A stretch of DNA of 24,620 nucleotides from the IMG/VR virus record IMGVR_UViG_3300044701_003128, positions 1 through 24,620 of that record; one strand, 5' to 3'. This DNA comes from a virus. Both the position numbers and the translations under genes were made by a program. Positions 5,588 to 20,692 of this stretch are shown here, in pieces. The first letter of the stretch is position 1, and each line of letters starts with the position of its first letter. The notes below the pieces were generated by a model. It was not told the DNA's origin, did not search any database, and saw nothing but the letters and a program-made list of their open reading frames with translations.

Positions 5588-6592
5588 TTAGGCGGTGCGG
5601 AAGGTGCGGGTGAAGCCCTGGATGGGGCGCTTGACGCCGGAGGCAGAGGCGGCGCCGTTGGCATCGACGGCCTGGACGATGGCGCCGTCGGCGACGCGCA
5701 GGCGGTAGATGGTGGCGGCATCGAGATCGGCGGCCGGGTTGATGGTGACCACGTTGCTGGCCAGGGTGACCGTGGCCGGCACCTTGACGCCGGACGAGGC
5801 GACTTCGAGGCTGAAGCCGGAGCCGTCGGTCTGACCCAGGGAGAGCTGGGTGAGGGCCACCGTGCCGTTGCTCGTGTAGGTGACAGTGAGGTTGTCGCCA
5901 ACGACCACGGCGGTGGCGTTGTCCGTAGGCACCGTGGCGGCCTGGCGGGTGCCGGCGGTCAGGAACAGGAGGCTGGACTGGACACCACCGAAGGTGATGG
6001 CCGAGGCACCGGCGTCGTAGCGGCCGAAAACCGGACGAGCCCGGGACATCAGGTCGAAGGTGATCTCGGTCAGGCCCTGAGCATTCATCTGCTCCTGGTA
6101 GTTCTGAATGACAGCGTTGAAGCCTGTGAAATCGTAGATGTAATTGCCGGTGGCGCCGTTGCTACGACCGAGCTCTTTGAGAAACTCGATGTAGATCTCA
6201 TAGTCCTTGTTGTAGCGAGCGCGCTGGATAAGCTCGAAACCCTCGTCGTAATTGCCTTGGAAGACAGGGCAATTCTGGCCTGCAGGAATTTCGGCGTCCT
6301 TCAGGAAGTAGGCGGTCACCGAGGCCTGAACCGAAGCTCCGGTGATCACCGAGTCCATCCAGCCGTCGTCGCCAAGCAGACGGAAGTCCTGGTTCTGGTC
6401 GTTGATACGGAAGCTCGCCTGGGTGATGCCTTGCATCTCAACGTAGCTGCTGCCTGGGTCGAGGGTGGGCAGTGTGATCGCACCGGCGTTGTCGCGGGTG
6501 GCGAAATAGCGGCAGGGAGGGGTCAGGTCCACAGCCCGGACGATCGTCCGATGGGACTTGTGGAACGAGAGCCCGATGGCATAGTCGGCCAT
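5588..6592 (-). CDS. Major tail (tube) protein with C-terminal Ig-like domain
   Basis: 334 residues. The N-terminal part (about 1-215) begins MADYAIGLSFHKS and has the beta-rich, Gly/Asp/Tyr-rich make-up of tail tube subunits. The C-terminal part (about 220-334) reads like a bacterial Ig-like domain of the SbsA/Big_5 type: VVVGDNLTVTYTSNG, repeated short beta strands, ATIYRLRVADGAIVQ and a final FTRTFRTA. Such add-on domains usually decorate the outside of the tail tube and may aid weak binding to cell surfaces. The start is supported by AAGGAG 9 bases upstream of ATG. A strong terminator follows the gene, as expected for a highly expressed structural protein. Confidence 0.82.
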   Translation of the reverse strand: MADYAIGLSFHKSHRTIVRAVDLTPPCRYFATRDNAGAITLPTLDPGSSYVEMQGITQASFRINDQNQDFRLLGDDGWMDSVITGASVQASVTAYFLKDAEIPAGQNCPVFQGNYDEGFELIQRARYNKDYEIYIEFLKELGRSNGATGNYIYDFTGFNAVIQNYQEQMNAQGLTEITFDLMSRARPVFGRYDAGASAITFGGVQSSLLFLTAGTRQAATVPTDNATAVVVGDNLTVTYTSNGTVALTQLSLGQTDGSGFSLEVASSGVKVPATVTLASNVVTINPAADLDAATIYRLRVADGAIVQAVDANGAASASGVKRPIQGFTRTFRTA

Positions 6593-7450: not shown

Positions 7451-7848
7451 CAGGCAGGCCCTCCGACGACACGGAAGGTGCCTTCGATCTCCTGGCGGAG
7501 GTCGCGGCGGTGAGCGGCGTCCATCGAGAGGTTGAAGACCAGCTCGAATCGGCCGCGGTAGCCGTTGACAGTGGCCTCGGCCTGGGAACCGTTGGTGATC
7601 CGCGGGTCCAGGGTGGCTGGACTGAGCAGCCGCCCCTTGCAGGCGTAGGTCGTGGAGTCAGCTCCGGCCTCGGGGCGCCAGTTGGGGGCCTGGAGTGTGA
7701 GGGTCGCGAGGTATTCGACGACCTCGGGGGTCTGGACGACGTTGCCTGTGGCCGGGTCCACGCTCGTTGCGCTGCCGCCGACCGCGAACGCCAGTTCGGC
7801 GTTGCCCCAGGGGGCGTAGCGGGCGATGGTGGCAGGCGAGATGGGCAT
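7450..7848 (-). CDS. Head-tail connector region protein, unknown family
   Basis: 132 residues from MPISPATIARYAPWGNAEL to TFRVVGGPA. The ATG at 7848 lies 2 bases after the stop of the DUF4054 gene, so the longer open frame reaching 8043 is rejected as shadow. The sequence has a beta-rich core (VVEYLATLTLQAP, TVNGYRGRFELVFNLSMD). Position between DUF4054 and gp10-like proteins suggests a head-completion or stopper protein. I recognise no family signature. Confidence 0.7.
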   Translation of the reverse strand: MPISPATIARYAPWGNAELAFAVGGSATSVDPATGNVVQTPEVVEYLATLTLQAPNWRPEAGADSTTYACKGRLLSPATLDPRITNGSQAEATVNGYRGRFELVFNLSMDAAHRRDLRQEIEGTFRVVGGPA

Positions 7849-7850
7849 AG

Positions 7851-8159
7851 TCAGAAGGCGAAGCCGCAGAGGGGGCGACTGTCGAGCAGTCGCTTGTACT
7901 CCTGGCCGTAGAGGGTGGCGTCGAGCCGGTTGCCGGTGGGCACGCCGGAGGTGGCGCCGACCTGATTGCCGATTTGCATGGTCCGCATCGCGAGGAGGTG
8001 GGCCGCCATGTAGCTGACGGCCTCGGGGTGGACATCTCCCCACTGGAGCGCTGGGATGAAGCGGCCCGCCTCCGCCAGGGCCTCGTCCACCACCGAGATC
8101 GACTGTTCGCCGAACTCGGGGAAGCGAGCGAGGAAATCTGACGTGGTGGGCGCGGTCAT
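7851..8159 (-). CDS. DUF4054-like head-tail adaptor protein
   Basis: 102 residues. It begins TTSDFLARFPEFGE, continues with a helix ending in PALQWGD, then a helix with YMAAHLLAMR. The order 'F..RFPEF', 'W' and 'A-A-H-L-L' is characteristic of DUF4054, a small helical adaptor of the gp6-like group that binds the portal ring. The gene overlaps the previous stop by 4 bases. Function is known for the family; the assignment rests on motif order and position just after the capsid genes. Confidence 0.75.
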   Translation of the reverse strand: MTAPTTSDFLARFPEFGEQSISVVDEALAEAGRFIPALQWGDVHPEAVSYMAAHLLAMRTMQIGNQVGATSGVPTGNRLDATLYGQEYKRLLDSRPLCGFAF

Positions 8160-8569
8160 GCCTTGCCCTCCGTGATCGCGGTGATGCGTTTGGCGATCGA
8201 GTTCTTCACCCGGATCCGGGATTCACGGGCGTCCCAGCGGCGGAGCTGCGCGATGTCGAAGCTGCTTTCGACGAGGCTGAGGGCCTCGGCAAGAGGGATG
8301 TCGGCGATCGAGTCAGCCTGGGCCGCGGGGGCCGGGGTGGTTTCCTCGGGCTCCTCGTCTTGGACGCGCAGGGCGCCCAGCTTGAGGAGATTCTTGACCA
8401 CGTCGTAGTCCTTGATCTTGTCCCAGACGTCCTCGGGGAAGTCACGGGTGACACCGGAGGGAACCTGAATGCACTCGGGGAGGCCCCCGCCATCAACAAA
8501 GGTGAAGCTGATGGTGCATTCTTTGTCCATCGGCGGGTTTTCAAGTTCAGGGCGATAGACGACGATCAT
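8156..8569 (-). CDS. Hypothetical protein after the major capsid gene
   Basis: 137 residues. The N-terminal half (ECTISFTFVDGGGLPECIQV) is beta-like, an acidic Pro/Ala linker follows (EEPEETTPAPAAQ), and the C-terminal half is helical and basic (DIAQLRRWDARESRIRVKNSIAKRI), resembling the short helix-turn-helix-like tails found in many phage proteins at this locus. No enzyme motif is visible. The start could be the ATG at 8569 or an internal ATG at MDKECT; neither has a good ribosome binding site. Likely an accessory head protein. Confidence 0.68.
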   Translation of the reverse strand: MIVVYRPELENPPMDKECTISFTFVDGGGLPECIQVPSGVTRDFPEDVWDKIKDYDVVKNLLKLGALRVQDEEPEETTPAPAAQADSIADIPLAEALSLVESSFDIAQLRRWDARESRIRVKNSIAKRITAITEGKA

Positions 8570-8613
8570 GATGAATGGGTGAATGTAGTAACCAGATCAG
8601 AATAGGTCGGTAC

Positions 8614-8633
8614 AAGCCGTTGGGTCACGGCTT
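8614..8633. terminator. Hairpin overlapping the major capsid stop codon
   Basis: AAGCCGT and ACGGCTT form a perfect 7-bp stem around a 6-base loop. The hairpin includes the stop codon of the capsid gene. On the minus strand it is not followed by a U-tract, so it may stabilise the capsid mRNA end or weakly terminate; on the plus strand four T follow, so a weak antisense terminator is equally possible. Confidence 0.4.
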
Positions 8634-9542
8634 TTCCATCACCAGGCCGCTCTTGGGGTAGTACCAAGCGAGGCCACCGATACGTGCGTGAGCAGCGACG
8701 GTGAACTCGAGGTTGCGGCGCTCGGGGGGCAGGAACTCCAGGGGCTGCGGGATGTGCAGCTGGAGCTTGTCCGGGTTGCGGTCATAGACCATGATCCGGT
8801 CCTTGGAGAGGAAACCGAAGCTCTTGGTGGCTTCCAGCTCGTTGATCGGCTCAATGGAGCTGATCATCGGGTTGGTGCGGAGGAAGAACTCCATCACCGT
8901 GGTATCGGAGGTCGTCGACCTCGGGGTGGTGGAGATGATGCGATACACGTTGTAGGGAACGAGCATCGTGTTGGGCATCTCCTTCATGTTGCTGTTCTGC
9001 ACGAGGCGTGTGGGCGCTTCGTTGAGCAGGGACAGCATCTCGTCGGTGGTGACGCCGGAGGTGTCGAACCACTTGTCGGGGACCAGCTTGTCGATCTGGT
9101 CGTTGTTGAAGAAGCCCTTCATGCCGGAGGGGGAGTCGCCGAAGTAGGCGATCTCCTGGACCTTCTCCTCGTAGGCGCGGCGGACGGCGTTGGCCCGGCG
9201 CTGCTCGAGGTTCATGTTGGGGACCATCGCCGCGGCGCGGGTCTCCTGGATGGTGTAGGCGAAGGAGCCGCCGAGGGAGCGCACCGGGTAGGTGATCTCC
9301 TTGCGGAGGACGTCAGCACGGGGCAGATCACTGGCCTTGTCGGCGATGATCTTCATCGATCCCTGCTTATCGAAGACTCGATAGGTGAAGGAATCGGAGC
9401 CAGGGCCGACCTCGGAGGAGATCGGGATCAGCTGGCTGTACTTGATGTCGGCGTACTCGACTTCGAACGTGCGAGACAGGATCGTCTCGAGTTCGCGGGC
9501 GAGAAAGATGCCGACGTCGTCGTTACGGACTTGGGTGGTCAT
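8625..9542 (-). CDS. Major capsid protein (DUF2184-like)
   Basis: 305 residues, HK97-fold size. The sequence TFEVEYADIKYSQLIPISSE, then ITYPVRSLGGSFAYTIQETR, AYEEKVQEIAYFGDS with GMKGFFN, and a C-terminal VAAHARIGGLAWYYP fit the DUF2184 group of major capsid proteins as I know it. The start has GGAG 8 bases upstream of ATG. It follows the prohead protease/scaffold and the cement protein and precedes the adaptors, the standard order. The gene is uniformly GC-rich with strongly preferred codons, as expected for the most abundant virion protein. It would form the icosahedral shell. Confidence 0.85.
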   Translation of the reverse strand: MTTQVRNDDVGIFLARELETILSRTFEVEYADIKYSQLIPISSEVGPGSDSFTYRVFDKQGSMKIIADKASDLPRADVLRKEITYPVRSLGGSFAYTIQETRAAAMVPNMNLEQRRANAVRRAYEEKVQEIAYFGDSPSGMKGFFNNDQIDKLVPDKWFDTSGVTTDEMLSLLNEAPTRLVQNSNMKEMPNTMLVPYNVYRIISTTPRSTTSDTTVMEFFLRTNPMISSIEPINELEATKSFGFLSKDRIMVYDRNPDKLQLHIPQPLEFLPPERRNLEFTVAAHARIGGLAWYYPKSGLVMEKP

Positions 9543-9558
9543 GGGAGGGGCTCCAGGA

Positions 9559-10179
9559 TCAGGTGCCGGTGTCGGCGGTGTAGGTCATCGCCGGGATGTC
9601 GACCTCGAGGAGAACGAGTCCTGCGCCGGAGGTCTCCGACAGCCAGCGGGCGCCGGCAGAAATCGCGACGGTCTTGTTGGCGACGGCGGTCTTGGTGAAG
9701 CGGCCGAGGAAGGCGCCCGTGACGGTGCCGGAGTGATCCGCGTTGAAGAAGCGGACGGCATCACCGAGGGCGATGGCAGCGGTGGTGTACACCCAGACCA
9801 CACCCTTGGAGACGACGTTGACCGTCTCCTTGTCGGGGTAGCCCATGCGGCCATCGGCGGCGAAGGGCGTGGGGACAGGGGTGTAGACCATGCCGGCATC
9901 CGAGCCCTCGACGACCATCGAGCTGATCACCAGGCCCTGGATGAGGGAACCGCTGGTGGCCGGCTGAATGGCGAGGGGATCGTTGCTGGTGGGCGAGTTG
10001 TCGGTCTGGACGAGGACGCCGTAGGGGATGGCGGCGCCGGATTGGTTGCGGTAGGACCGGCAGACGTAGGCCTGCAGGTCGGCAATCATGCCTTCGTGGC
10101 CGGCAACCTGACGCTGGGGGTAGGAACCCTGAGCGCCGATGGGATTGTTGACCGTGGTGGGGGTGAAAGTAACAGCCAT
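9559..10179 (-). CDS. Head decoration / structural cement protein
   Basis: 206 residues, MAVTFTPTTVNNPIGAQGSY to TYTADTGT. The order is: short N-terminal arm with GHEGMIADLQ, then YRNQSGAAIPYGVLVQT, a central GLVISSMVV with GYPDKETVNVVSKGVVWVY, and FFNADHSGTVTGAF. This is the pattern of the phage cement protein family ('structural cement protein Gp24'-like), which binds the capsid surface and stabilises it. A strong ribosome binding site (AAGGAGAT) precedes the ATG, consistent with high expression. It sits between scaffold and capsid genes. Confidence 0.75.
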   Translation of the reverse strand: MAVTFTPTTVNNPIGAQGSYPQRQVAGHEGMIADLQAYVCRSYRNQSGAAIPYGVLVQTDNSPTSNDPLAIQPATSGSLIQGLVISSMVVEGSDAGMVYTPVPTPFAADGRMGYPDKETVNVVSKGVVWVYTTAAIALGDAVRFFNADHSGTVTGAFLGRFTKTAVANKTVAISAGARWLSETSGAGLVLLEVDIPAMTYTADTGT

Positions 10180-10191
10180 GGAAGGATCTCC

Positions 10192-11478
10192 TTACTTGGT
10201 GGCGGTGAGAGGACGCTTCCAGGCATCGGCCTGCCGAGCTCGGTAGGTCTCGAGGGGGCTGGCCGCTTGACGGGTGCCGCGGAGGGCGTCGCGGAGGTTC
10301 TCGGTGCTGTCACCGCGGGCCTCGTCGTCGCTCTCTTCGGTGTCCTCGTCCTCGGGGTCTTCGCCTTCCTCGTCTTCGTCCTCGGGGGAGTCGGCGCGGG
10401 CGGCGAGGATGCCCTCAACCACGCCCTGGATGTAGGCGGGCTCAGCGTCTTCCCGAGGGGCGGAACCGGTGAGGTTCTTGAAGGCTTCGGTGTAGAGGGT
10501 GTCGTCGTCGATGCCGTCGAACTTGAAGTCCTCGTTGAAGGCGGGGGCCAGCTTCTGGAGGGTGGCCAGGCGGGCGGCCACGAGCTGGTCGAGTTCGGCG
10601 GTGTCGATGCGGGAGGGGTCGCTGTCGAGCTCAGACAGGCGCTCTTCGAGAGCGTCGGCCCGGCCTTCGGCGGCTTCCTTTTCGTAGGTGGCGGAGTCGA
10701 GATCTTCCTGGAGGCTGTCGACGCGAGCGACGAGGTTGTCGCGCTCGGTGGTCAGAGCCGTGAGCTGGCGCTCCATGTCCCGTGCGAAGGACTGGACCGC
10801 ACCGGCTGCTTCCGCGGGCAGATCGATCTCCAGGCCGTCCAGTTTGACGGTGGCCATGACGGGAGATGCAGGTGAACTGGGCTGGAGCGCCGACCCCGGG
10901 GGAGGGGTCAGGCTCGGGTCGATGGCGACGGCGTCGGCCGCATCCATGCGATCGAGAAGAAGACGTACCTCGGGGCCAGCCCGGCCTCGGGGAACGATGG
11001 CGATGTGGTTGACGCGAATGTTGCGCTGGACGCCGGAGTACTCCTCGCCCTCGGGGGTGAAGCCGGGGGTGGGGTCGAAGTCGACCTTGTAGCCGGCGGA
11101 GACTTCGGTGGCGTCTTTGCGCCTGATCTTGCCGATGGCGTCTTGGTCGGTGACGACCAGGGCGACTTCCACGAAACCGTCGTTGTACCGAACTTGGCTA
11201 CCGGAGTAGCCGACTTGGTACTGCTTGGTGTTCGCGGCATCGAGCAGGACCGGAGGGTGGCCCCACGTTGCGGGTTTCATGCCGAACGTGGAGAGGGAAT
11301 CAGGGTTGCTGACTTCCTCGGGGGGCCGGTATTCGCGGACCTGGGAACCATCGGCGCGGCGGTAGAGCTGAGTCCCCGTGCGCGCGGCACGACACCAGAC
11401 GCGGAGGTAGCCCTCCTCGGTGGTCTCGCTCCCGGTGATGGGCGCGAAGTCGTAGCGATGGACAGAACGTGTTTCCAC
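10192..11478 (-). CDS. Prohead protease (DUF2213) fused to scaffold domain
   Basis: 428 residues with a GTG start inside an inverted repeat. Residues 1-180 are a DUF2213-type prohead protease: TTEEGYLRVWCRAARTGTQ, GHPP at 73-76, EVSAGY with candidate nucleophile S127, and NHIAIVPRGRAGPEV with H158. Residues about 205-360 form a coiled coil (ERQLTALTTERDNLVARVDS) typical of scaffold, followed by a very acidic stretch (about 365-395) and a basic end. The protease would cut scaffold and capsid N-termini during maturation. A Met opening MATVKLDGLEIDL marks the domain border and could start a separate scaffold, but no ribosome binding site is seen there. Confidence 0.85.
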   Translation of the reverse strand: METRSVHRYDFAPITGSETTEEGYLRVWCRAARTGTQLYRRADGSQVREYRPPEEVSNPDSLSTFGMKPATWGHPPVLLDAANTKQYQVGYSGSQVRYNDGFVEVALVVTDQDAIGKIRRKDATEVSAGYKVDFDPTPGFTPEGEEYSGVQRNIRVNHIAIVPRGRAGPEVRLLLDRMDAADAVAIDPSLTPPPGSALQPSSPASPVMATVKLDGLEIDLPAEAAGAVQSFARDMERQLTALTTERDNLVARVDSLQEDLDSATYEKEAAEGRADALEERLSELDSDPSRIDTAELDQLVAARLATLQKLAPAFNEDFKFDGIDDDTLYTEAFKNLTGSAPREDAEPAYIQGVVEGILAARADSPEDEDEEGEDPEDEDTEESDDEARGDSTENLRDALRGTRQAASPLETYRARQADAWKRPLTATK

Positions 11479-11758: not shown

Positions 11759-12619
11759 TTAGGCGCTGCGGCGGCTTGTCTTACCCGAGCACTTCCACTT
11801 GGTGCGGGAGAGGCAGAGGGGAGTATTGCGGTCGGCGCCGGAGCAGTCCTTGCCGTGAGACTTCATGTCGCCGAAGGAGCGAGCGCAGTAGCGGTCCCCC
11901 TTGTCGGTGCCGGGAGCGATGGTGTAGCCCTTGGCGCCGTAGCGAACTTTGTTTTTGCGGCCGGTCTCGGGGTTTGTGACGGTCTTGGTGTACTTCTTGC
12001 CGTCGTCGGCGTCGCTGCGCAGCGGAGGTTGGATCTGGGTGGGGGCGTAGAAGGCGATGTAGTTGTCGGTCCGGCCTCGGGGGGTGCGGCGGTAGCCGGG
12101 TTCGTAGCGGCGGCGGAGGCGCTCGACGGTGAGGTTGTGGCGGCGCATGCCGCTGCGCAGGGAGGCCCGGGTGGCGCGGCCGGATTCGTACATGGCGCTG
12201 CCCACGGCGCCAGCCCGTTCCACCTCGAGCTGCGCGGCTCTCTGAATGGCTTTTTCGGCGCGGCGATTCGCGGTCTTGGCGGCCTCGTGCAGACGCTGGG
12301 TCTTGGACTGTGGCTGGATCTGGGCGAAGGCCTCGGGAGTGAGGCGCATCGAGGGGGGCTTGGCCGTGGCGCGGTGAACGACCTCGGTGACACCACGTTG
12401 AGCAGTGCGCTTGATCGCTGCAGGGGCACCGAGGATGGCGTTGCGGCTGCCTTTGAAGACGAGGGCGCCACCGATGGCCCCCGCGGTGAGGCCGGCGGCC
12501 AGGGCGGCGCGCTTGGGGAAGGCACCGCGCTTGTGGCAGGTCTGGCCGGCTGCGATGAAGCTCTGACCGCAGGCCCGGCCCTGGGCGTCGAGGCGGAGGG
12601 TGGCGGGGGTCAGGGTCAT
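11759..12619 (-). CDS. Virion-associated protein with CGx3Ix5C motif and Cys-rich C-terminus
   Basis: 286 residues. An N-terminal cysteine motif (C17-G-Q-S-F-I-A-A-G-Q-T-C28) is followed by basic residues and an Ala/Gly hydrophobic segment (about 37-54, AALAAGLTAGAIGGALVF), then a basic helical region. The C-terminal 75 residues read VRYGAKGYTIAPGTDKGD, then YCARSFGDMKSHGKDCSG, LCLSRTKWKC, a conserved cysteine-rich domain that I associate with structural proteins of cyanophages and related phages but cannot name. The membrane-like segment and strong basic charge suggest an ejected or internal head protein. It lies 3 bases after the stop of the previous gene. Confidence 0.75.
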   Translation of the reverse strand: MTLTPATLRLDAQGRACGQSFIAAGQTCHKRGAFPKRAALAAGLTAGAIGGALVFKGSRNAILGAPAAIKRTAQRGVTEVVHRATAKPPSMRLTPEAFAQIQPQSKTQRLHEAAKTANRRAEKAIQRAAQLEVERAGAVGSAMYESGRATRASLRSGMRRHNLTVERLRRRYEPGYRRTPRGRTDNYIAFYAPTQIQPPLRSDADDGKKYTKTVTNPETGRKNKVRYGAKGYTIAPGTDKGDRYCARSFGDMKSHGKDCSGADRNTPLCLSRTKWKCSGKTSRRSA

Positions 12620-12622
12620 GGG

Positions 12623-13573
12623 TCAGATCGCGAGCTGGTCGTACTGGGGGGTGAAGCCGTCCGCCCAAACTGCATCAGCGCCGTACCTGCCACGAGTGCG
12701 AGCGTTGATGCGGTCATAGCCACGAGCGAGGGTCATGGCTGTGCGCATGTCGTACTCACCAATTTGACGACGGCTGGCTCCACTGGCTTTCATGGAGGCG
12801 CGCTTCCTCGAATAGCGCGCAGCGATGGGCTTTTCGAACTTCTCGCGTTGAAGACTGCGGTTCGCAGCACGGCTAGTCATGCGGTTGACTTGTGCAGAGA
12901 TCACACCACCAGCGGCACCTCCCACAGCGCCATAACCGCCACCAATACCTGCACCGATAGCTGCGCCTTTTAGGTTACCTGTCAAGAGAGCACCGGCAAC
13001 ACCGCCAGCCAAAGCTCCAACACCGGCATTAAGAGCAGCCGCACGTTTTGCTTGACTTTTGCGGCTAAAGGGATCACCACCAACAGGGGCGCCGTAATAA
13101 CCTTCACGTTTGATCCGCTGGCGGCTGAGGATTCCTGTCTCGGCCCCGGTTAATGTTTTGCGCGACGGTCCTTGCTGTGCGTTTCCTTTGGTGCATTTTT
13201 CACCAGGGGAGATCGATCCATTACCGCACTTGAGGTCGAGGCGCTCAGCGGCGTCGAGGCGGGAGCGGATGTACTGACGGGAGCGGTCTTGGATTCCCAT
13301 GTCGCAGGCGGCGAGGTATTCGTGAGGGGTCAGCGCAGAGTCCATCTTCTTGTAGGAACCGCAGCCGCCGTCGCAGCTGCATTTCTTGCCTTTGCCGGCG
13401 CCGCAGCTGCAGGATTCGGCGTCCATGGGGGCCTTGGTCTTCTTGGCGCCGCGCATGCCGCGCTTCCGGGAGTGCTTGGACATGGGCATGTCGTCAGAGC
13501 CTTCACGGACGTCGCCGGGCTCCATTTCCTTCTCTTCCATCTCCATCGGCGGGCGTTTGCGCGTGGCAGGCAT
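12623..13573 (-). CDS. Cys-rich virion-associated protein with Gly/Ala membrane-like hairpin
   Basis: 316 residues. The N-terminus is highly charged and Met/Lys/Glu-rich, followed by a cysteine cluster (about 55-71, CSCGAGKGKKCSCDGGC) and then the C-G-x3-I-x5-C motif (C116 to C127). Residues about 180-235 are a long Gly/Ala stretch (VGALAGGVAGALLTGNL, GAAIGAGIGGGYGAVGGAAG), as in glycine-zipper proteins that cross membranes. The C-terminal third is basic. No enzyme motif is seen. Together with its two Cys-motif neighbours it may help DNA pass the cell envelope. The middle of the gene is less GC-rich than its start. A run of 12 G lies about 50 bases upstream of the start. Confidence 0.75.
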   Translation of the reverse strand: MPATRKRPPMEMEEKEMEPGDVREGSDDMPMSKHSRKRGMRGAKKTKAPMDAESCSCGAGKGKKCSCDGGCGSYKKMDSALTPHEYLAACDMGIQDRSRQYIRSRLDAAERLDLKCGNGSISPGEKCTKGNAQQGPSRKTLTGAETGILSRQRIKREGYYGAPVGGDPFSRKSQAKRAAALNAGVGALAGGVAGALLTGNLKGAAIGAGIGGGYGAVGGAAGGVISAQVNRMTSRAANRSLQREKFEKPIAARYSRKRASMKASGASRRQIGEYDMRTAMTLARGYDRINARTRGRYGADAVWADGFTPQYDQLAI

Positions 13574-13641: not shown

Positions 13642-14502
13642 CTAAGCGTATGGAGTTGGAGCTAATTGTTCGAAGACAGCGGCTTTGTTGAGGTCAACGG
13701 GTTTGATGTTGTTAGCGCGAAGTGATGCAGCGACCTCTTTGCGGTGGCGTTCACGTTGAGCGGCGTAAACGGGATCGTTAGCAGCGATGTCTGCGTCCCA
13801 CGGTGCTAGGTAGCAGCGGCAGCGGGGGTGACAAGGGACACGCACTTCGTTGCGCTTGTAGAGGGTGCCGGCGCGAGGAGCACAGAGATCGCAAGAGCGA
13901 TCATCGCTGGTCGCGTACCACATAACAAGATCTATGCCTTGTGCGGCGTAGTACTGATTAGAGGCGTCGTTGTAGGCGCGCAGCGCTTCGGTGCGGACGA
14001 TGGTTTCAGCGCGGGATTTGACCACGCCGAGGCGAAGGCGCATGTCCTGCACGAGGGCGTTGGTGGGCCGGCCTTCGGCGATGCCCTGGGCGACGACCTC
14101 GGCTGAGGTGGTGGCGAAGGATTCGCCATGGCGGCGGAGGTAGCCCTTGGCCTGGGCAGCGGCAGCGGCGGTGGCCTCGAGGGGGATGGAGACGTCGATC
14201 CGCTCTCGGGGGGATAGCTCTGTGGCGACGTCGAGCCCGCGGGTGCTGGCATCCGCGGTCAGGTTGCGGAGGATCCGGTCGTATGCGTCTATGCGGTCTG
14301 GGCGGTAAGCCGGGATGAGCTGCCGGAAGTCTTGCAGCAGAGCCAGGTTGCGCTGGGCGGGGTCCGCGTAGCCGGCGCGCATGTGGATGCGGGTGCGGCG
14401 GACCAGGCGGTTGAAGGACTGGTCGAGAACACGGTTCAGGAGCGTGATGGTGCCGTCCTCGGTGGTACGGAGTAGGGCGTTGTAACGCTCAAGAAGGTCC
14501 AC
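13642..14502 (-). CDS. Mu F-like minor head (head morphogenesis) protein
   Basis: About 286 residues from a GTG at 14502, which overlaps the previous stop by 14 bases; a TTG at 14544 would add 14 residues. The C-terminal half has the MuF signature: TIVRTEALRAYNDA, then DDRSCDLCAPRAGTLY and PCHPRCRCYLAPW. The cysteines C-x2-C and C-H-P-x-C-R-C can bind one metal ion. Mu F-like proteins bind the portal and are needed for correct head assembly; several are injected. The gene sits 14 bases into the preceding small gene and two genes after the portal. Confidence 0.88.
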   Translation of the reverse strand: MDLLERYNALLRTTEDGTITLLNRVLDQSFNRLVRRTRIHMRAGYADPAQRNLALLQDFRQLIPAYRPDRIDAYDRILRNLTADASTRGLDVATELSPRERIDVSIPLEATAAAAAQAKGYLRRHGESFATTSAEVVAQGIAEGRPTNALVQDMRLRLGVVKSRAETIVRTEALRAYNDASNQYYAAQGIDLVMWYATSDDRSCDLCAPRAGTLYKRNEVRVPCHPRCRCYLAPWDADIAANDPVYAAQRERHRKEVAASLRANNIKPVDLNKAAVFEQLAPTPYA

Positions 14503-14677
14503 GAGAGCCGGGGAACTGAATGGTGCGCTCAGCCAGGGCGCCAAGCATGGTCAGAGCGTCCTCGGGGGCACCTTGAGCTGCTGCCTTCTCAATCAAGGAT
14601 GTGATGCCATCAACGTCCCCTGCAGCCTGATACTGCAGGGCTTTTTCGTAGGCAGCTTCGAAGTCTTTGTCAGTCAC
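14489..14677 (-). CDS. Small helical protein between the giant protein and MuF
   Basis: 62 residues from a GTG at 14677, whose first codons overlap the stop of the giant protein by 8 bases (GTGACTGA); the longer form from ATG 14719 would overlap by 50 bases. The sequence TDKDFEAAYEKALQYQAAGDVDGITSLIEKAAAQGAPEDALTM reads as two or three amphipathic helices like a single TPR-type repeat. It ends inside the start region of MuF, so translation of the three genes is probably coupled. Function unknown; possibly a small head assembly chaperone. Confidence 0.6.
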   Translation of the reverse strand: MTDKDFEAAYEKALQYQAAGDVDGITSLIEKAAAQGAPEDALTMLGALAERTIQFPGSRGPS

Positions 14678-17600
14678 GGGCTTGGCGCGCTTCGGTCCAG
14701 ATGTCGTCCACCCAAGCATAAGCGAGTGGAAACTCGCGCTTAAACCTGGAACCTTGAGTCACGTAGAGCACTGAGAGCTCCGCAAACGTTTCAGTACGCG
14801 AACTTCTCACATCTGAACGTCCATACTCTGATACTGCGGCTTCTAGCTGATTAACAACAAGCTTTTTGCGTTGCTGGACATCTCTGTAGAATGCATCAAA
14901 GTCTGTGCTGTTGCTTTTTAGTTTTGACGGCACTGCTTTGTCTAGGAACGGAGATCTGTCTACAGGATCGTAAATAATACCTCTAATAATTGTCTCGTCG
15001 GATCCACCTCTGTTGAGACTCGCTTGAAAGTGGACTTTGTGCGAAATCTCGTGAATATGCAAAATGGCTTCGTGTACATCTCCATTACTTGTATTTCTTG
15101 CAACGCTGTACAGCCGCTTGAAACGCTCGGTCATGCTAGGACGTTGCCTTCCCTGTGCTTCCGCTCGTCGATCCATGAAGCGGGCGCTGGCGGCGACCAT
15201 CTCACCGGGATCGGGGTTGAGAATGGCGTTATCCTTACGAGAGCTTCGTACATAAATACTATCTGAAGCGGTAGAAGCTAAACCATCAAATGCACCAAGC
15301 TTAATCATTAGATCAGCTTGCTTCATTATCTTCTTACTGTCTTTTCCTATAGAGGTCTTGGCGAGTCCCTGCTCCATATCACCTAAGACAATGGCAGGAT
15401 TATTCGTGATGTTTCTAGCTCTTACAAAATCTTGCAAAGCCTGTACGTTATTTGGGATTACACCTTTTTGAGCTTTCAAATCCTCAAAGACATTTGCGAT
15501 CTCTTTGGAGGACATTGGTTTTTGATTTTTCTGCATCCAAGTGAATCGACGCTTGCGCACGGGCGCAAACGGATCAGAGGTTCCTAGACCCGTATGGAAC
15601 TCAGTAACCTTTGCTTTTTTCAAGGCGTATGCACCCGCTGCAATGGCACCTGCAGTCAACGCGACCTTGGCGACTTGAGAGGTGCGCTTTTGGCGGCACT
15701 CATGTGACTTAGGAATAAAGCTCTCGCCGCAGGGCTTACCTTTCTTGGCTGGTGAAGTGGTCTTAGTTGTGCGCGCCCTAAACTTAGTAAGAGCTAAGCT
15801 ATCTTTTCGTGCATTGGCTTCTCGTTGTGCTTTGCTGCTAGAGCTGATCGCTAGCATCAGATACATTTTGATGCGCTGTACGGCCTCGGGGTCAGTGATT
15901 CCTTTAGGGAGTAGAGCTTCGATAGGTGGCAGGCCGCTGGATTCGCCCTCAGCATCTGTACGCTTGCCGAGGTTGACCAGTTCAGTAAATACGTTCAGCT
16001 CTTGAGCAGCCGTAACATCACCATTGATACGCCTCCACCAGAGGTCTAGGCGTTTGGATTCCTGCTTAATCGAAGTAGCACCTCGCAAGTCTGCCTTACC
16101 GAACATATTGTCAAGCTTGTACAGGGTTTTAGATATTGCCGAAATTCGATCGCTTTGAGTAGAGCGCGGTGTACCTTCAACAATCATGCGAGCCCACGCC
16201 TCGCAGTTGTTTTCAAGCATGTCGTAGCGCATCGGTTGCTGCAGCGACTTGCCGATGCGATAGCGCAGCTGCTGTTCGTCAAACTTCCCTGTACCTCCAC
16301 CCATGGTCTCAGGGACTTTGCTGAATATATAAGGTCTGAAATTCCCACCAGGGCCTGTACCTTCCAACGAAGCACCGCCAATACCGTTTGCTTCACCTCC
16401 GAAGTGGGCAAACTGGTGAATGCCTCCCATTTTTCCTACGTATATTCCGTAGTGATCTTCATTACCCCCAATAACCACCTTGCCTCCTGTATAGCGCGTA
16501 TATACAAGTTGTCCAGGCTTCCAGCCTTCCTTGATGACGATGTCTTCGTAGTATTTATCAAGAGCTGCTCCTGTGTCAAATCCTTGATTCGCTTTCTTGA
16601 TCTTAGATACTGTCTGCTTGAAGCTCGGAGGCTGAGGTAAGCCTGAGCCTTTGTTAAGTCTGTTTATGTCGAACGCTACGGTAACACCTATAACCCCTAC
16701 AGCTACGATGCCTGCTGCGACTGCTACTTTTGCGGCTTTATTCGTTTTCTCTTTTTTCTTCTCATCTTTCTCCAGATCAAGTTGCGCCTGCGCGACACTT
16801 AGTGTGTCCATAGGCATGCCTGTTTTCTTTACATAAGCCTTTTCCTTTGGTGTGGCTGTCTTTTCAGCCAGTTGCCGTTCTCGGGGGGATGTAGCGGGGC
16901 CTTGTCCCTTCCGGCAGTCATGCGTCTTGGGGATGTGGCTGGCCCCACAGGGCTTTCCCAGGCGACTGGCCTCCTTCAGGTCGGCGCGGTGCTCGAGGAA
17001 GGCGCGGACGCGCGGGGGGAGGTCGTACTCGGGGGAGTCGCTGCGGCGGGCGATGATGCTGTCCGCCTCGTTGGCAGCGGCCTCGGGGGATCGGCCGGCT
17101 CGGACCAGCATCTGGATGATCTGCTCGCGGGTGCGCGGAGGGCGGGCGCGGCGTTGACGTGGGGTTCCGGTCAGGGGCTGGGCATTGGCACGCTGCGAGC
17201 CGATCTGCCGCTCTCGGGTGCGGGGCCGGGGGGCCAGGCGGCGGAAGCCGTTCTGCTGCAGGAAACTGACAGCACCGTCGATGTCGTTGCCCTGCCAGCC
17301 CATGTCCCGGGCGGCGTTGCGCAGCAGCGAGTCGCTGGGGCCGCGGTTGCGCGCTGTCTCGTCGGTCTGGGAGGCGAGCCAGGTGCTTCGGCGGTTGCCG
17401 TTGAAGCTGCCGGGCTGCACACGCTCGTAGTAGAGCTTCTGAAGGACGAGCTCGGCGTGATTGCCACCTGTAATTTGGTAGTTAGCACCGAGACCGATGT
17501 CTGTTTTCACTCGATTGGCTGTAGCGATAAGAGTAGATCGAATTTCTATGCCTGTATTGCCCGTAGCTACGACGTTTGATGTGGCAGCTGTGTTCTCCCG

Positions 17601-18848
17601 AATCGCTGCACTGTAATTGCTGAAGTATGTATTGAAGGACTCTTGCGTAGAAGTAAACATATCATCAGCGATGCTCATAGTTGACGCTTCGTCACGCAGA
17701 TTGCTAGGGCGCAATACGATTTGTCGAATCAAACCCCGAAAGTTGTTTTCAGCATTGGCTTGATTGTCAGGCGTTAAGCCCTGCATGCGTGGCATTGCAT
17801 TCCCCAGGGCGATGGTGGCGTAACGGTCGACATCGTCGATATTCCGAGGATTGAGTCCTCGGGTGGCCATGTCGGCTCGCATGGAAGAGCGAGCAGAGAT
17901 CAGAGAGGCACTGACACGATTAACGACTTGTGTCCTGCTAGGTATTCCTTTTGAATTGATAACAGTATCTGGCGCGAAGCTGAATCGGCGTGCAAGGTGA
18001 TCGGCTGCGGCAAACTCTGCGTAGATGCTTTGACCATCACTATTCCGTGCACCAACAACGTCACCTAGGAATTCGGAGCGAAAATCGTTGTAAGAACGAC
18101 CCTGTAGACGCTGGTAGGACGCATTGATTTGAGTATCAAGGCCCGAAAAGGCGCCGCGGCGAGCATCACTGGCTCTGGTAAATGCGCTGAAATTAGTTGT
18201 TGATGCACTGGGATCACGAGTGAAGCTGCGTGTGACAGCACGACCAAGACGTTGTGCCTCAAGACCTGCGACACGGCGCTGAGCAATGCGGCGCGGTCCG
18301 AAAACAGGAACTTGATCGAGTCCCCAGCTGATAGCGTTGTTCGCTGATTGCTCGATTTGTTGCCCGATCCCACTCCGATACTGCGGAACCAGCACTTTGA
18401 TGCCTTCGTGACCTTGGCGAATAGCCCAGATACCGAAGATCGTAGATGCTACGGGCAGTAAAGCTTTGCTGACCGTACTGCGCAGTTTTTGCTTCTGCTT
18501 TATGTTTTGTCCAGGGACGGCCTTGACAATGCCACGTTCAATGGCGGCGCGCCCGCCTTGGATGTCAGCGAGGTTGCCGGTCTGAAGTCCTCGGCGGAGG
18601 CGGGCCTGGCCACGTTGGATTGAGGCTGCACCGGCGAGGGGGTCACCGGCGACGACGCGGGAGTGAGAGTCAGTGCCCTCACCCTTGACGCGGCATTTCC
18701 AGCTGGGCGGAATGCAGCGATCACCACATACACGGTTTGGGGGATTGCACTTAGGGCCTTTTCCTTTCTTGCTGCGTCGTGCGTCAAGACGTTGCTTTGC
18801 TACTAAGAAGGCAGCGGCGCGGGCGGTGTCATTAGTGATCTCGCTCAT
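14670..18848 (-). CDS. Giant multidomain (polyvalent) virion protein: Cys motifs, LRAT/H-NC papain-like domain, HExxH metallopeptidase
   Basis: 1392 residues; start overlaps the portal stop (TGATG). Order: Cys motif C34/C41/C45/C52; hydrophobic segment about 130-147; long helical region to about 500; Arg/Pro-rich part (540-630); second motif C634...C645; hydrophobic segment about 703-725; papain-like domain about 765-895 with HYGIYVG (H799), IHQF (H811) and NNCEAWARMIVEG (C882), the H-x11-H...NC pattern of LRAT/HRAS-like enzymes; third motif C1040...C1051; hydrophobic segment about 1058-1075; C-terminal peptidase-like domain with HEISH (H1266, E1267, H1270) and ETFAE (1353-1357) as zinc ligand site. 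LRAT enzymes act on lipids, relatives on peptidoglycan peptides; the substrate here is unknown. Placed between portal and MuF, it is probably packaged and ejected. Domain calls are from motifs only. Confidence 0.85.
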   Translation of the reverse strand: MSEITNDTARAAAFLVAKQRLDARRSKKGKGPKCNPPNRVCGDRCIPPSWKCRVKGEGTDSHSRVVAGDPLAGAASIQRGQARLRRGLQTGNLADIQGGRAAIERGIVKAVPGQNIKQKQKLRSTVSKALLPVASTIFGIWAIRQGHEGIKVLVPQYRSGIGQQIEQSANNAISWGLDQVPVFGPRRIAQRRVAGLEAQRLGRAVTRSFTRDPSASTTNFSAFTRASDARRGAFSGLDTQINASYQRLQGRSYNDFRSEFLGDVVGARNSDGQSIYAEFAAADHLARRFSFAPDTVINSKGIPSRTQVVNRVSASLISARSSMRADMATRGLNPRNIDDVDRYATIALGNAMPRMQGLTPDNQANAENNFRGLIRQIVLRPSNLRDEASTMSIADDMFTSTQESFNTYFSNYSAAIRENTAATSNVVATGNTGIEIRSTLIATANRVKTDIGLGANYQITGGNHAELVLQKLYYERVQPGSFNGNRRSTWLASQTDETARNRGPSDSLLRNAARDMGWQGNDIDGAVSFLQQNGFRRLAPRPRTRERQIGSQRANAQPLTGTPRQRRARPPRTREQIIQMLVRAGRSPEAAANEADSIIARRSDSPEYDLPPRVRAFLEHRADLKEASRLGKPCGASHIPKTHDCRKGQGPATSPRERQLAEKTATPKEKAYVKKTGMPMDTLSVAQAQLDLEKDEKKKEKTNKAAKVAVAAGIVAVGVIGVTVAFDINRLNKGSGLPQPPSFKQTVSKIKKANQGFDTGAALDKYYEDIVIKEGWKPGQLVYTRYTGGKVVIGGNEDHYGIYVGKMGGIHQFAHFGGEANGIGGASLEGTGPGGNFRPYIFSKVPETMGGGTGKFDEQQLRYRIGKSLQQPMRYDMLENNCEAWARMIVEGTPRSTQSDRISAISKTLYKLDNMFGKADLRGATSIKQESKRLDLWWRRINGDVTAAQELNVFTELVNLGKRTDAEGESSGLPPIEALLPKGITDPEAVQRIKMYLMLAISSSSKAQREANARKDSLALTKFRARTTKTTSPAKKGKPCGESFIPKSHECRQKRTSQVAKVALTAGAIAAGAYALKKAKVTEFHTGLGTSDPFAPVRKRRFTWMQKNQKPMSSKEIANVFEDLKAQKGVIPNNVQALQDFVRARNITNNPAIVLGDMEQGLAKTSIGKDSKKIMKQADLMIKLGAFDGLASTASDSIYVRSSRKDNAILNPDPGEMVAASARFMDRRAEAQGRQRPSMTERFKRLYSVARNTSNGDVHEAILHIHEISHKVHFQASLNRGGSDETIIRGIIYDPVDRSPFLDKAVPSKLKSNSTDFDAFYRDVQQRKKLVVNQLEAAVSEYGRSDVRSSRTETFAELSVLYVTQGSRFKREFPLAYAWVDDIWTEARQARD

Positions 18849-20692
18849 CAGTACACCTCCCAGCCAGCGCGAAGGGCTTCGACTTCGCCCTCGGGGATAG
18901 GGGAGAGTCCAGCCACAGTCTGCCGAGGGAACAGACGGGATACCCCGAGCTTGGCGGCGCGCATCGAGGCGAAGCCTGCGACGTAGGGGCCATGTGCAAG
19001 CTCGTCGTTCCGGTCGAAGTGAGCGCGGTACAGGCGGTAGGCCCGGGCTCGGTGGGGCCCGAAAATCATCAGCGGCGCCGCGGTAGAAGAGTCGGTGCGC
19101 TGGCCGTCGGGGCCGACCAGGAAGCCGGCCTTCACGTCGCCGGCCTCGTGGGTGACACGGATGCGGAGGCCCTGGGCCTGGTAGAAGTCGAAGGCGTCGC
19201 GCTTCGCGGTGGCGTCGGGCGCCGGGGCTTCGCCCTGGGCGGCGTCGCCTTCCGGCTGTTCTGGGCCCCCGTCAGGAGGCGGCGGGTTCATCGCCGCCTG
19301 GGCCTGGGCCTCGAGCCCCATCATCTGGGCCTGGAACTGGGCGTCGGTCTGGGCGACGAGCTGCTCAGTGACGGCTTCGTTGAGCGTGGTCTCCATGCTG
19401 AACTCTGTGCCGCCGAAGCGAGACTCCCGGACCTCCAGAGCGTTGAGCACCCCGAGGTTGATGTACTGGGCATCGGATTGGGCCACCTGCAGACGCAGCG
19501 CTGCCTTTTCCTCGTCGGTTTTGGTGAAGACGGACGGGAAGTGGACGCTCCAGGCCTCCGGGGGACGGCCTCGGGTGGGGCCTTCGCGGCTGGCGAGGAT
19601 GTACTGGAAGACCTCGGTGATCGGACCCTGGCAGTACACGGACTGCCACTGCTCGACGATGGAGGCCCAGACGCGCTCCTCGAAGCGGCCCTCCTTGCCG
19701 AGGCCGCCGGGCGATTCGCCCATGAGGATGGAGGCGGGCCAGCCGGTGGCGGCCTGCAGGTCTTTGATGAACGGGTCGGTGGCGCTGGCGATGTTGGCCA
19801 GGGCCCGGTTGATGAAGTTGACCTCCTCCTCGGTGTCGACCACCACGCCGCCGTAGACGCTGCGGCTGAGGCTGTTGGCCTCGAGGCGCTTGCGCAGGTC
19901 GGTCTCGTTGCCGGAAGCAATGCGCTGGAAGAGGCCCGGGATCTTGTGGACGAAGAGGTCCGAGTCCGCGGTCATCGTCTCGAGGCCGGACATGGCGGCC
20001 TCGTAGCGTTTATAGCTCTCCCATAAAAGCTGCAAAACACTCATGCCCCAGCCGGTGTTCCGCACTCGTGTGTCCCAGGGGAGGTACAGGCCGTCGAAAC
20101 GGGCGACGCGGGACGAGTGGATGCGGACGTTGACGTAAGAGCTTTGTTGGTCAGGAGTAATGCGCTGACTTGTTGTAATGCGATAATGAGAGGGCTTGCT
20201 GTAGTCGGTGATCGAGAAGTCTTCTGGTATGAGGTGGTGGCGGCTCAGGGGGATGTAGCCGCGGACGGCGCGGATGCGCTGGAGGTCGACGGGCTCCTCT
20301 TCCGGCAATCCATCGTCGATGAGAAGGACCAGGCCGGCGCCGCCGTAGAGGCGCTGGAGCTTCACGGCCTCGGAGAGGGCCTGGTGGAATTGCGTGTTCT
20401 TCAGGAACTCCTCGAAGGAGGAGATCAGATCCTGCGAGTCGGTCTGCTTGTCGCCACCGAGGGTGATTTTGGTGTGATGACGCAGGATGTCATCTGCAAT
20501 GCAGTCGACGTAGCGACGTGGTACGGCGTAGTTGTAGAGATCTTCTAGTTCTTTCTGTGAGAGTAGAACTGTAGGCGCAACCGACGATGCAATGCTCTTG
20601 TCTTTAGCGCTCGTTCCCATACCAGTGAGAACGTTGACAAGAGCACCATCATTCCTCGCTTCCGGCATTTCTCGGAATGCAGAGGAGGTCAC
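18848..20692 (-). CDS. Portal protein (DUF1073-like)
   Basis: 614 residues from a GTG start with only a weak ribosome binding site; an ATG at codon 9 is an alternative. The N-terminal three quarters match the DUF1073-type portal family: DLYNYAVPRRYVDCIADDIL (51-70), YGGAGLVLLIDDGL, DSDLFVHKIPGLFQRI and the hallmark GESPGGLG (325-332) followed by a long helix. The portal forms the dodecameric ring through which DNA is packed and leaves. After a Pro/Gly/Ala-rich linker (about 470-500) there is an extra C-terminal domain of about 115 residues (GLRIRVTHEAGDVKAGFLVG to EALRAGWEVY) that I do not recognise. TerL lies upstream and the giant virion protein overlaps the stop. Confidence 0.88.
   Translation of the reverse strand: MTSSAFREMPEARNDGALVNVLTGMGTSAKDKSIASSVAPTVLLSQKELEDLYNYAVPRRYVDCIADDILRHHTKITLGGDKQTDSQDLISSFEEFLKNTQFHQALSEAVKLQRLYGGAGLVLLIDDGLPEEEPVDLQRIRAVRGYIPLSRHHLIPEDFSITDYSKPSHYRITTSQRITPDQQSSYVNVRIHSSRVARFDGLYLPWDTRVRNTGWGMSVLQLLWESYKRYEAAMSGLETMTADSDLFVHKIPGLFQRIASGNETDLRKRLEANSLSRSVYGGVVVDTEEEVNFINRALANIASATDPFIKDLQAATGWPASILMGESPGGLGKEGRFEERVWASIVEQWQSVYCQGPITEVFQYILASREGPTRGRPPEAWSVHFPSVFTKTDEEKAALRLQVAQSDAQYINLGVLNALEVRESRFGGTEFSMETTLNEAVTEQLVAQTDAQFQAQMMGLEAQAQAAMNPPPPDGGPEQPEGDAAQGEAPAPDATAKRDAFDFYQAQGLRIRVTHEAGDVKAGFLVGPDGQRTDSSTAAPLMIFGPHRARAYRLYRAHFDRNDELAHGPYVAGFASMRAAKLGVSRLFPRQTVAGLSPIPEGEVEALRAGWEVY

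Follow-up and report, generated by a model that had tools for sequence, protein, structure and literature searches.

What would an LRAT-type thiol enzyme do inside a giant protein encoded among the head genes of a phage, and is the domain in question an LRAT domain at all? The locus lies in the window, the whole stretch of DNA analysed here, which comprises one IMG/VR viral record of 24,620 bases. A sequence-only reading had proposed a permuted papain-like domain of the LRAT (H-NC) type at 16160-16560, in a giant protein whose gene lies between those for portal and MuF, and had suggested profile comparison and structure prediction as computational checks.

Gene order and layout of the giant protein

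The genes on the minus strand followed the order small terminase, large terminase, portal, 1392-aa ORF, MuF, two smaller genes, head maturation protease, cement protein and major capsid protein. Pfam families identified the portal and MuF genes on either side of the 1392-aa ORF, and the position given earlier for the giant gene was thus correct. The genes that matter here were as follows:

18848-20692, minus strand: portal protein (PF06381, 3.2e-52)
14670-18848, minus strand: giant ORF, 1392 aa, with its ATG overlapping the portal stop codon (TGATG)
13642-14544, minus strand: MuF minor head protein (PF04233, 2.2e-12)
12623-13573, minus strand: 316-aa structural-module gene with a related Cys motif (13193-13228)
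11759-12619, minus strand: 286-aa gene with a related Cys motif (12536-12571); the homologous gene in contig L091 carries an LRAT domain
10192-11478: head maturation protease, a separate gene
9559-10179, minus strand: structural cement protein of the E217 gp24/Pam3 gp6 type (3e-18)
5588-6592, minus strand: Ig-like domain protein (Big_5)

The start of the giant ORF lies inside the portal stop codon, and its translation is therefore probably coupled to that of the portal. The gap between the end of the giant ORF and MuF was 125 bp in the window, and the corresponding genes overlapped in the sister contig L004. No matching family for the 1392-aa protein was found in PHROGs, where its relatives matched weakly to tail lysin-type families. 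A further ORF of 1431 aa (2-4294, minus strand) was open at the contig end and was without a convincing family match.

The host is likely to be a picocyanobacterium, judging from relatives of the structural proteins. Synechococcus phage S-CBS4 has a relative of the window portal (40%), and the genome of Vulcanococcus limneticus (Synechococcaceae) contains another as a fragment (59%); the window cement protein resembled that of the cyanophage Pam3. The phage fragment in V. limneticus LL (L146) was degraded; a portal piece was followed directly by a MuF piece, and the giant gene was absent.

The giant protein, in which a zincin-like module follows the domain described by the sequence-only reading, had the following layout:

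16950-18848, minus strand: N-terminal trunk, aa 1-633, shared, at about 25-54% identity, by proteins in the same slot of related viruses
18693-18749, minus strand: N-terminal four-Cys version of the Cys motif, CNPPNRVCGDRCIPPSWKC, aa 34-52, read from the sequence
16906-17041, minus strand: conserved DNA island, 93% identical to L004, with divergent flanks
16905-16958, minus strand: boundary Cys motif 1, GKPCGASHIPKTHDCRKG, aa 631-648, encoded by the conserved island
16653-16745, minus strand: hydrophobic segment after motif 1, aa 702-732 (maximum Kyte-Doolittle value 2.54)
16053-16595, minus strand: LRAT/PLAAT-like domain, aa 752-932, from profile and predicted structure
16452-16454, minus strand: H799, predicted catalytic His, invariant (36/36)
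16416-16418, minus strand: H811, predicted second His, kept in 15/36; K, I or V in one clade
16224-16226, minus strand: Y875, seven residues before the Cys (-7), where PLAAT also has Tyr and other relatives have F or W
16203-16205, minus strand: C882, putative nucleophile, located where a predicted helix begins (35/35 readable relatives)
15744-16052, minus strand: helical tail of the LRAT cassette, aa 933-1035
15687-15740, minus strand: boundary Cys motif 2, KGKPCGESFIPKSHECRQ, aa 1037-1054
14673-15692, minus strand: zincin-like metallopeptidase cassette, aa 1053-1392, with HExxHxxH at 1266 and downstream ETFAE; 46% identity to the cassette of contig L079

The trunk (aa 1-633) had no Pfam or PHROG match, and no MuF domain was found in it when one was sought with Pfam. 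The window zincin module had no significant Pfam match; its HExxHxxH motif and the ETFAE-type Glu were invariant across five cassettes. The Cys motif (C-G-x3-I-P/A...C) recurred in several structural-module proteins (16905-16958, 15687-15740, 18693-18749, 13193-13228 and 12536-12571). It usually preceded a hydrophobic segment and marked cassette boundaries, and it might serve as a disulfide staple, a targeting site or a cleavage site.

Identity and conservation of the LRAT-like domain

The motifs HYGIYVG, HQFAHFG and NNCEAW began at residues 799, 811 and 880 of the ORF translation, which makes the Cys residue 882; H799, H811 and C882 all stood at the positions claimed for them, within 16160-16560. 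The spacing H-x11-H-x(50-90)-NC arose in 0.24% of shuffled copies of the giant protein, and by itself it was suggestive but not decisive for LRAT identity. The full-length 1392-aa protein scored 18.3 bits against the Pfam LRAT family (PF04970), and the trimmed window domain reached 24.3 bits, a borderline value equal to the curated cut-off (24.3), with a match that spanned model positions 18-119 of 120. A single-sequence phmmer search against the PDB found no PLAAT. As the single-sequence evidence was borderline, relatives were collected, and with them the LRAT assignment was firm.

At least 40 viral contigs contained an LRAT-like domain, and 36 distinct domains, the window included, were gathered from viral contigs by the Cys motif and an alignment scan. 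All cassettes of relatives (29/29) matched Pfam LRAT, with a best value of 3.4e-11. When the 36-domain profile was searched against all PDB sequences, the top matches were PLAAT2 (4dpz, E 4.4e-12), PLAAT3/AdPLA, an HRASLS3-LRAT chimera and PLAAT4; 4dot gave 4e-10, and canonical NlpC/P60 peptidases reached 0.0028 at best. The profile alignment took in the His strand, the NCE motif and then the (Y)GVxRSxQ segment common to PLAAT chains. Membership in the canonical NlpC/P60 family was rejected, since the Cys comes last here whereas it precedes the His in that family, and since the scores were poor (E 0.066 for PF00877 against the window domain).

An AlphaFold2 model of the domain (pLDDT 79.7, pTM 0.76), built on a shallow alignment of 36 rows, placed H799 and H811 in adjacent strands and C882 at a helix start. 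Foldseek ranked H-REV107, PLAAT4, PLAAT3 and AdPLA 1-4 in the PDB, each with a probability of 1.00, with TM (target) values of 0.58-0.66, rmsd values of 4-5 A and E-values not below 1e-3. No non-PLAAT match with a probability of at least 0.2 was present among the best 50 matches listed. The best matches among viral models were the LRATs of Marseillevirus and Pithovirus and picornavirus-type polyproteins, and the viral structure library gave no convincing tailed-phage LRAT. The modelled domain is predicted to have a PLAAT-like fold. Both suggested computational checks pointed to the PLAAT family, so that the LRAT-type permuted papain-like domain of the sequence-only reading was supported. The first cassette truly belongs to the LRAT/PLAAT family, its predicted His-His-Tyr-Cys site is complete, and the fold and modularity of the giant protein are well supported.

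H799, N881 and E883 were invariant in all 36 rows, and so was C882 in each of the 35 rows that were readable. H811 was present in 15 rows (the window and 14 relatives) and was replaced by K, I or V in the other 21, which formed one clade (clade B, the largest) with 100/100 support. In clade B, the Tyr at -7 was replaced by Phe, and the His and Cys were fixed. The proposed His-His-NC site therefore stood family-wide for H799 and C882, and H811 proved not to be essential. The median dN/dS within groups was 0.07-0.16, and the LRAT domain is under purifying selection. A mutagenesis study of LRAT reportedly showed that the enzyme may not need its third polar residue (PMC3142127). Taken together, the conserved His and Cys, the low dN/dS and the possibly dispensable third residue suggest functional enzymes in both clades, and the losses in clade B leave room for differences in activity or substrate between members of the family. 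There, the second His and the -7 Tyr were lost while His and Cys stayed fixed under strong purifying selection, which might reflect a change of substrate.

Of 150 genomes of the host order, 93 had an LRAT gene of their own on the chromosome, and it shows the H-x11-H, NNCE and RSxQ signature of the phage domain. The picocyanobacterial gene (e.g., L150-L162) was mostly absent from small genomes (1.6-1.8 Mb), and in V. limneticus it adjoined a clpX-like gene. Host proteins scored 13-21 bits with the phage LRAT profile, compared with 49.6 for PLAAT2, and recent copying from the host LRAT gene was not supported by these scores; hhalign of the phage and host LRAT gave 84% over 38 columns. An LRAT alignment scan of 84,980 bacterial and archaeal genomes returned no relative; it used short-peptide patterns and missed the host LRAT genes, so it is no proof of absence. 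Giant structural proteins of the T4-like cyanophages S-SSM5 and P-RSM4, which gave weak tblastn matches, were discarded as candidates, because the LRAT profile found nothing in them and Pfam assigned a laminin-G domain.

Trunk and exchangeable cassettes

A pattern scan for the Cys motif yielded 105 viral stretches, mostly genes in the portal-MuF slot. The trunk was about 630 aa long and ended in the general boundary motif GKPCGASHIPKxHxCRKG. The sister contigs L003 and L004 had portals 94% identical to the window portal; the product of their next gene resembled the window protein only in its trunk, which has diverged, and in its boundary, which is almost the same, and it continued with a different end domain. 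The 136-bp island (window 16906-17041) was 93% identical, and both its flanks were unalignable by blastn. The island is a likely recombination site and cassette boundary. The same separation of trunk and cassette was found in other pairs: the trunks of L014 and L024 were 98% identical and their cassettes 28%, whereas the trunks of L017 and L028 were 38% identical and their cassettes 89%. The slot thus encodes a trunk and Cys motif with exchangeable enzyme cassettes, and these have been swapped. Beyond what had been read from the sequence alone, the LRAT domain is one of several such cassettes.

The modules behind the motif were LRAT-like, GNAT-like, APH/RIO-type kinase, zincin and alpha/beta-hydrolase-like; the GNAT-like module had no Pfam match and was assigned by reading of the sequence. 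A hydrophobic segment stood behind the motif in 97% of LRAT cassettes and in 94-97% across GNAT-like/kinase and LRAT cassettes. Counted as loci, with duplicate loci of the same contigs included, the domain orders were trunk-LRAT (32), trunk-GNAT/kinase (20), trunk-GNAT/kinase-LRAT (15), trunk-zincin-LRAT (8) and trunk-LRAT-zincin (2). The window has the last order, and so does L079, with a clade-B LRAT. Wherever flanks were present, the LRAT gene sat between portal and MuF, except in L091. There (7814-9604, plus strand), an LRAT domain with its own Cys motif was fused to the front of a homologue of window 11759-12619, another structural-module gene; the LRAT module thus moves between genes.

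Other modules were observed in the same setting. In L031, a 1086-aa same-slot ORF from about 2204 (plus strand) had after residue 608 or so a module resembling an alpha/beta-hydrolase (LMSYSNGGNVA), possibly another lipid-acting enzyme; its GxSxG-like motif was read by eye, and it had no Pfam match. The APH/RIO-type kinase module (2.7e-10) was found behind a second Cys motif in L098, L015, L032, L036, L039 and L093. From about 9438 (plus strand) in L091, a Cys-motif protein carried a module that reads like an ADP-ribosyltransferase (YRG...FSSSR...REREFL), with no Pfam support.

Possible role and relation to known systems

Polyvalent proteins are delivered by the virion with phage DNA, and their zincins are proposed to process the polypeptide (PMC5512222). 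Such proteins combine several enzymatic domains in one polypeptide near packaging genes, as the LRAT and zincin-like modules between portal and MuF do here. LRAT-type enzymes act at the lipid-water interface (PMC10318531). Tox-Act1, a permuted NlpC/P60 toxin related to LRAT, has phospholipase activity, and its toxicity depends on its His and Cys (PMC12994826). As gene slot, tandem modules and zincin fit the polyvalent theme, these properties together suggest a module that may enter with the DNA, be held at the membrane and act on acyl groups. We favour, as somewhat probable, a modular polyvalent-type protein, probably carried in the virion, that would deliver a lipid- or acyl-acting thiol enzyme into picocyanobacteria, with swappable cassettes and a zincin-like module as the second of them.

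For packaging, injection, membrane placement, substrate and processing, we infer the following course. The giant protein would be packaged near the portal and enter the host together with the DNA, and the hydrophobic segment would place the LRAT domain at the membrane. With H799 activating it and H811 orienting it, C882 would attack an acyl ester or amide via a thioester intermediate, which would then be hydrolysed in a phospholipase A-like manner or donate its acyl group to an acceptor. Early in infection this would alter the host's membrane lipids or its acylated proteins. The zincin may cut the polypeptide and free the modules. Behind the Cys motif and hydrophobic segment, whole enzyme cassettes are exchanged by recombination. 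The known membrane anchor of PLAAT proteins is C-terminal. The hydrophobic segment here precedes the LRAT domain, unlike that anchor, and this counts against the membrane placement. A bolder proposal, that tailed phages carry a virion PLAAT-type enzyme which opens or remodels the host membrane (cytoplasmic or thylakoid) during DNA entry, as a phage counterpart of PLAAT3 within a new plug-in cassette system, is offered only tentatively and seems doubtful.

Other explanations were weighed against the delivered lipid- or acyl-acting enzyme. A polymorphic toxin against competing bacteria, with the LRAT module as toxic tip, would resemble MuF toxins, which also sit downstream of the portal (PMC5576092); the constant trunk with exchangeable C-terminal enzymes and the antibacterial phospholipase Tox-Act1 (PMC12994826) agree with it. 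No immunity gene was present, however, in the 125 bp before MuF in the window or between the overlapping genes in L004, the trunk lacks a MuF domain, and cassettes can be tandem with the LRAT often not the sole one, so we regard this as rather unlikely. It is unlikely, too, that the domain is a peptidase maturing the giant protein or other head proteins, for example at Cys-motif boundaries, and not an injected lipid enzyme. Although the fold is papain-like, 24 of 29 members gave weak Pfam NlpC/P60 matches and multi-cassette proteins would need processing, as proposed for the zincins of polyvalent proteins (PMC5512222), the E-values of the profile search are about nine orders of magnitude better for PLAAT than for peptidase NlpC/P60. 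The phage has a separate gene for a head maturation protease (10192-11478), and siblings such as L004 have the trunk and boundary and lack the LRAT module, which is thus unneeded for assembly.

An acyltransferase acting on a host or phage protein or a small lipid, and interfering with the host's own LRAT-family pathway, would fit the chromosomal genes with the same signature in 93 of 150 host-order genomes. But the phage domains are not recent copies of these (13-21 bits against 49.6 for PLAAT2), and we consider this quite unlikely. A catalytically dead structural module, for which the clade without second His and Tyr might speak, is highly improbable: LRAT can reportedly function without the third polar residue (PMC3142127), the His and Cys are invariant in 36 divergent members, that clade included, and the domain is under purifying selection.

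On the favoured reading, that of a virion-borne enzyme acting on lipids or acyl groups, the DNA of tailed phages may be accompanied into the host by an enzyme that modifies lipids. The known targets of phage proteins that accompany the DNA are nucleic acids, proteins, nucleotides and the cell wall; a lipid-type LRAT module would extend this list to membrane lipids or acyl groups. C882 and H799 offer a concrete active-site test. The infection mechanisms of freshwater cyanophages are little known, and one conserved boundary with exchangeable cassettes would be a simple route to further early-infection enzymes in them. The phage module may also hint at the role of the picocyanobacterial chromosomal LRAT gene.

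A search of open-access literature found no description of phage LRAT domains. The locus represents a known family within a known type of phage effector, and we could not find this combination described; the cassette boundary looks new, and the available part of the polyvalent-protein account (PMC5512222) contained no mention of a conserved Cys motif as a site of cassette exchange. Polyvalent proteins of phages and conjugative elements (Iyer et al., 2017, PMC5512222) are likewise giant, lie beside packaging genes and carry tandem enzymes with zincin, GNAT-like and kinase modules, whereas the four peptidase superfamilies listed for them are MPTase, assemblin-like, DD and LonC, with LRAT not included. 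Compared with LRAT/PLAAT proteins (HRAS-like suppressor, H-REV107; PF04970, permuted NlpC/P60), the phage domain has the same order and spacing of H-x11-H and NCE, Tyr at -7, RSxQ after the Cys helix and the same predicted fold; however, it is embedded in a 1392-aa protein behind a Cys motif and hydrophobic segment, and one phage clade lacks the second His and Tyr. The LRAT-related T6SS effectors Tox-Act1/TseH (PMC12994826) are likewise permuted NlpC/P60 proteins with conserved His and Cys and serve as delivered effectors, as is proposed for the phage domain, but they are secreted by the T6SS, come with an immunity protein and belong to a different superfamily clade. MuF polymorphic toxins (PMC5576092) share the portal-proximal gene and the variable C-terminal enzyme, whereas here the trunk lacks the MuF domain, which is encoded by a gene of its own further downstream, and there is no immunity gene. 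Enteroviruses need PLA2G16/PLAAT3 for timely delivery of their genome to the cytosol (PMC6639302). As a functional parallel only, a PLAAT enzyme would aid delivery of a viral genome across a membrane in both cases, supplied there by the host and encoded here by the virus.
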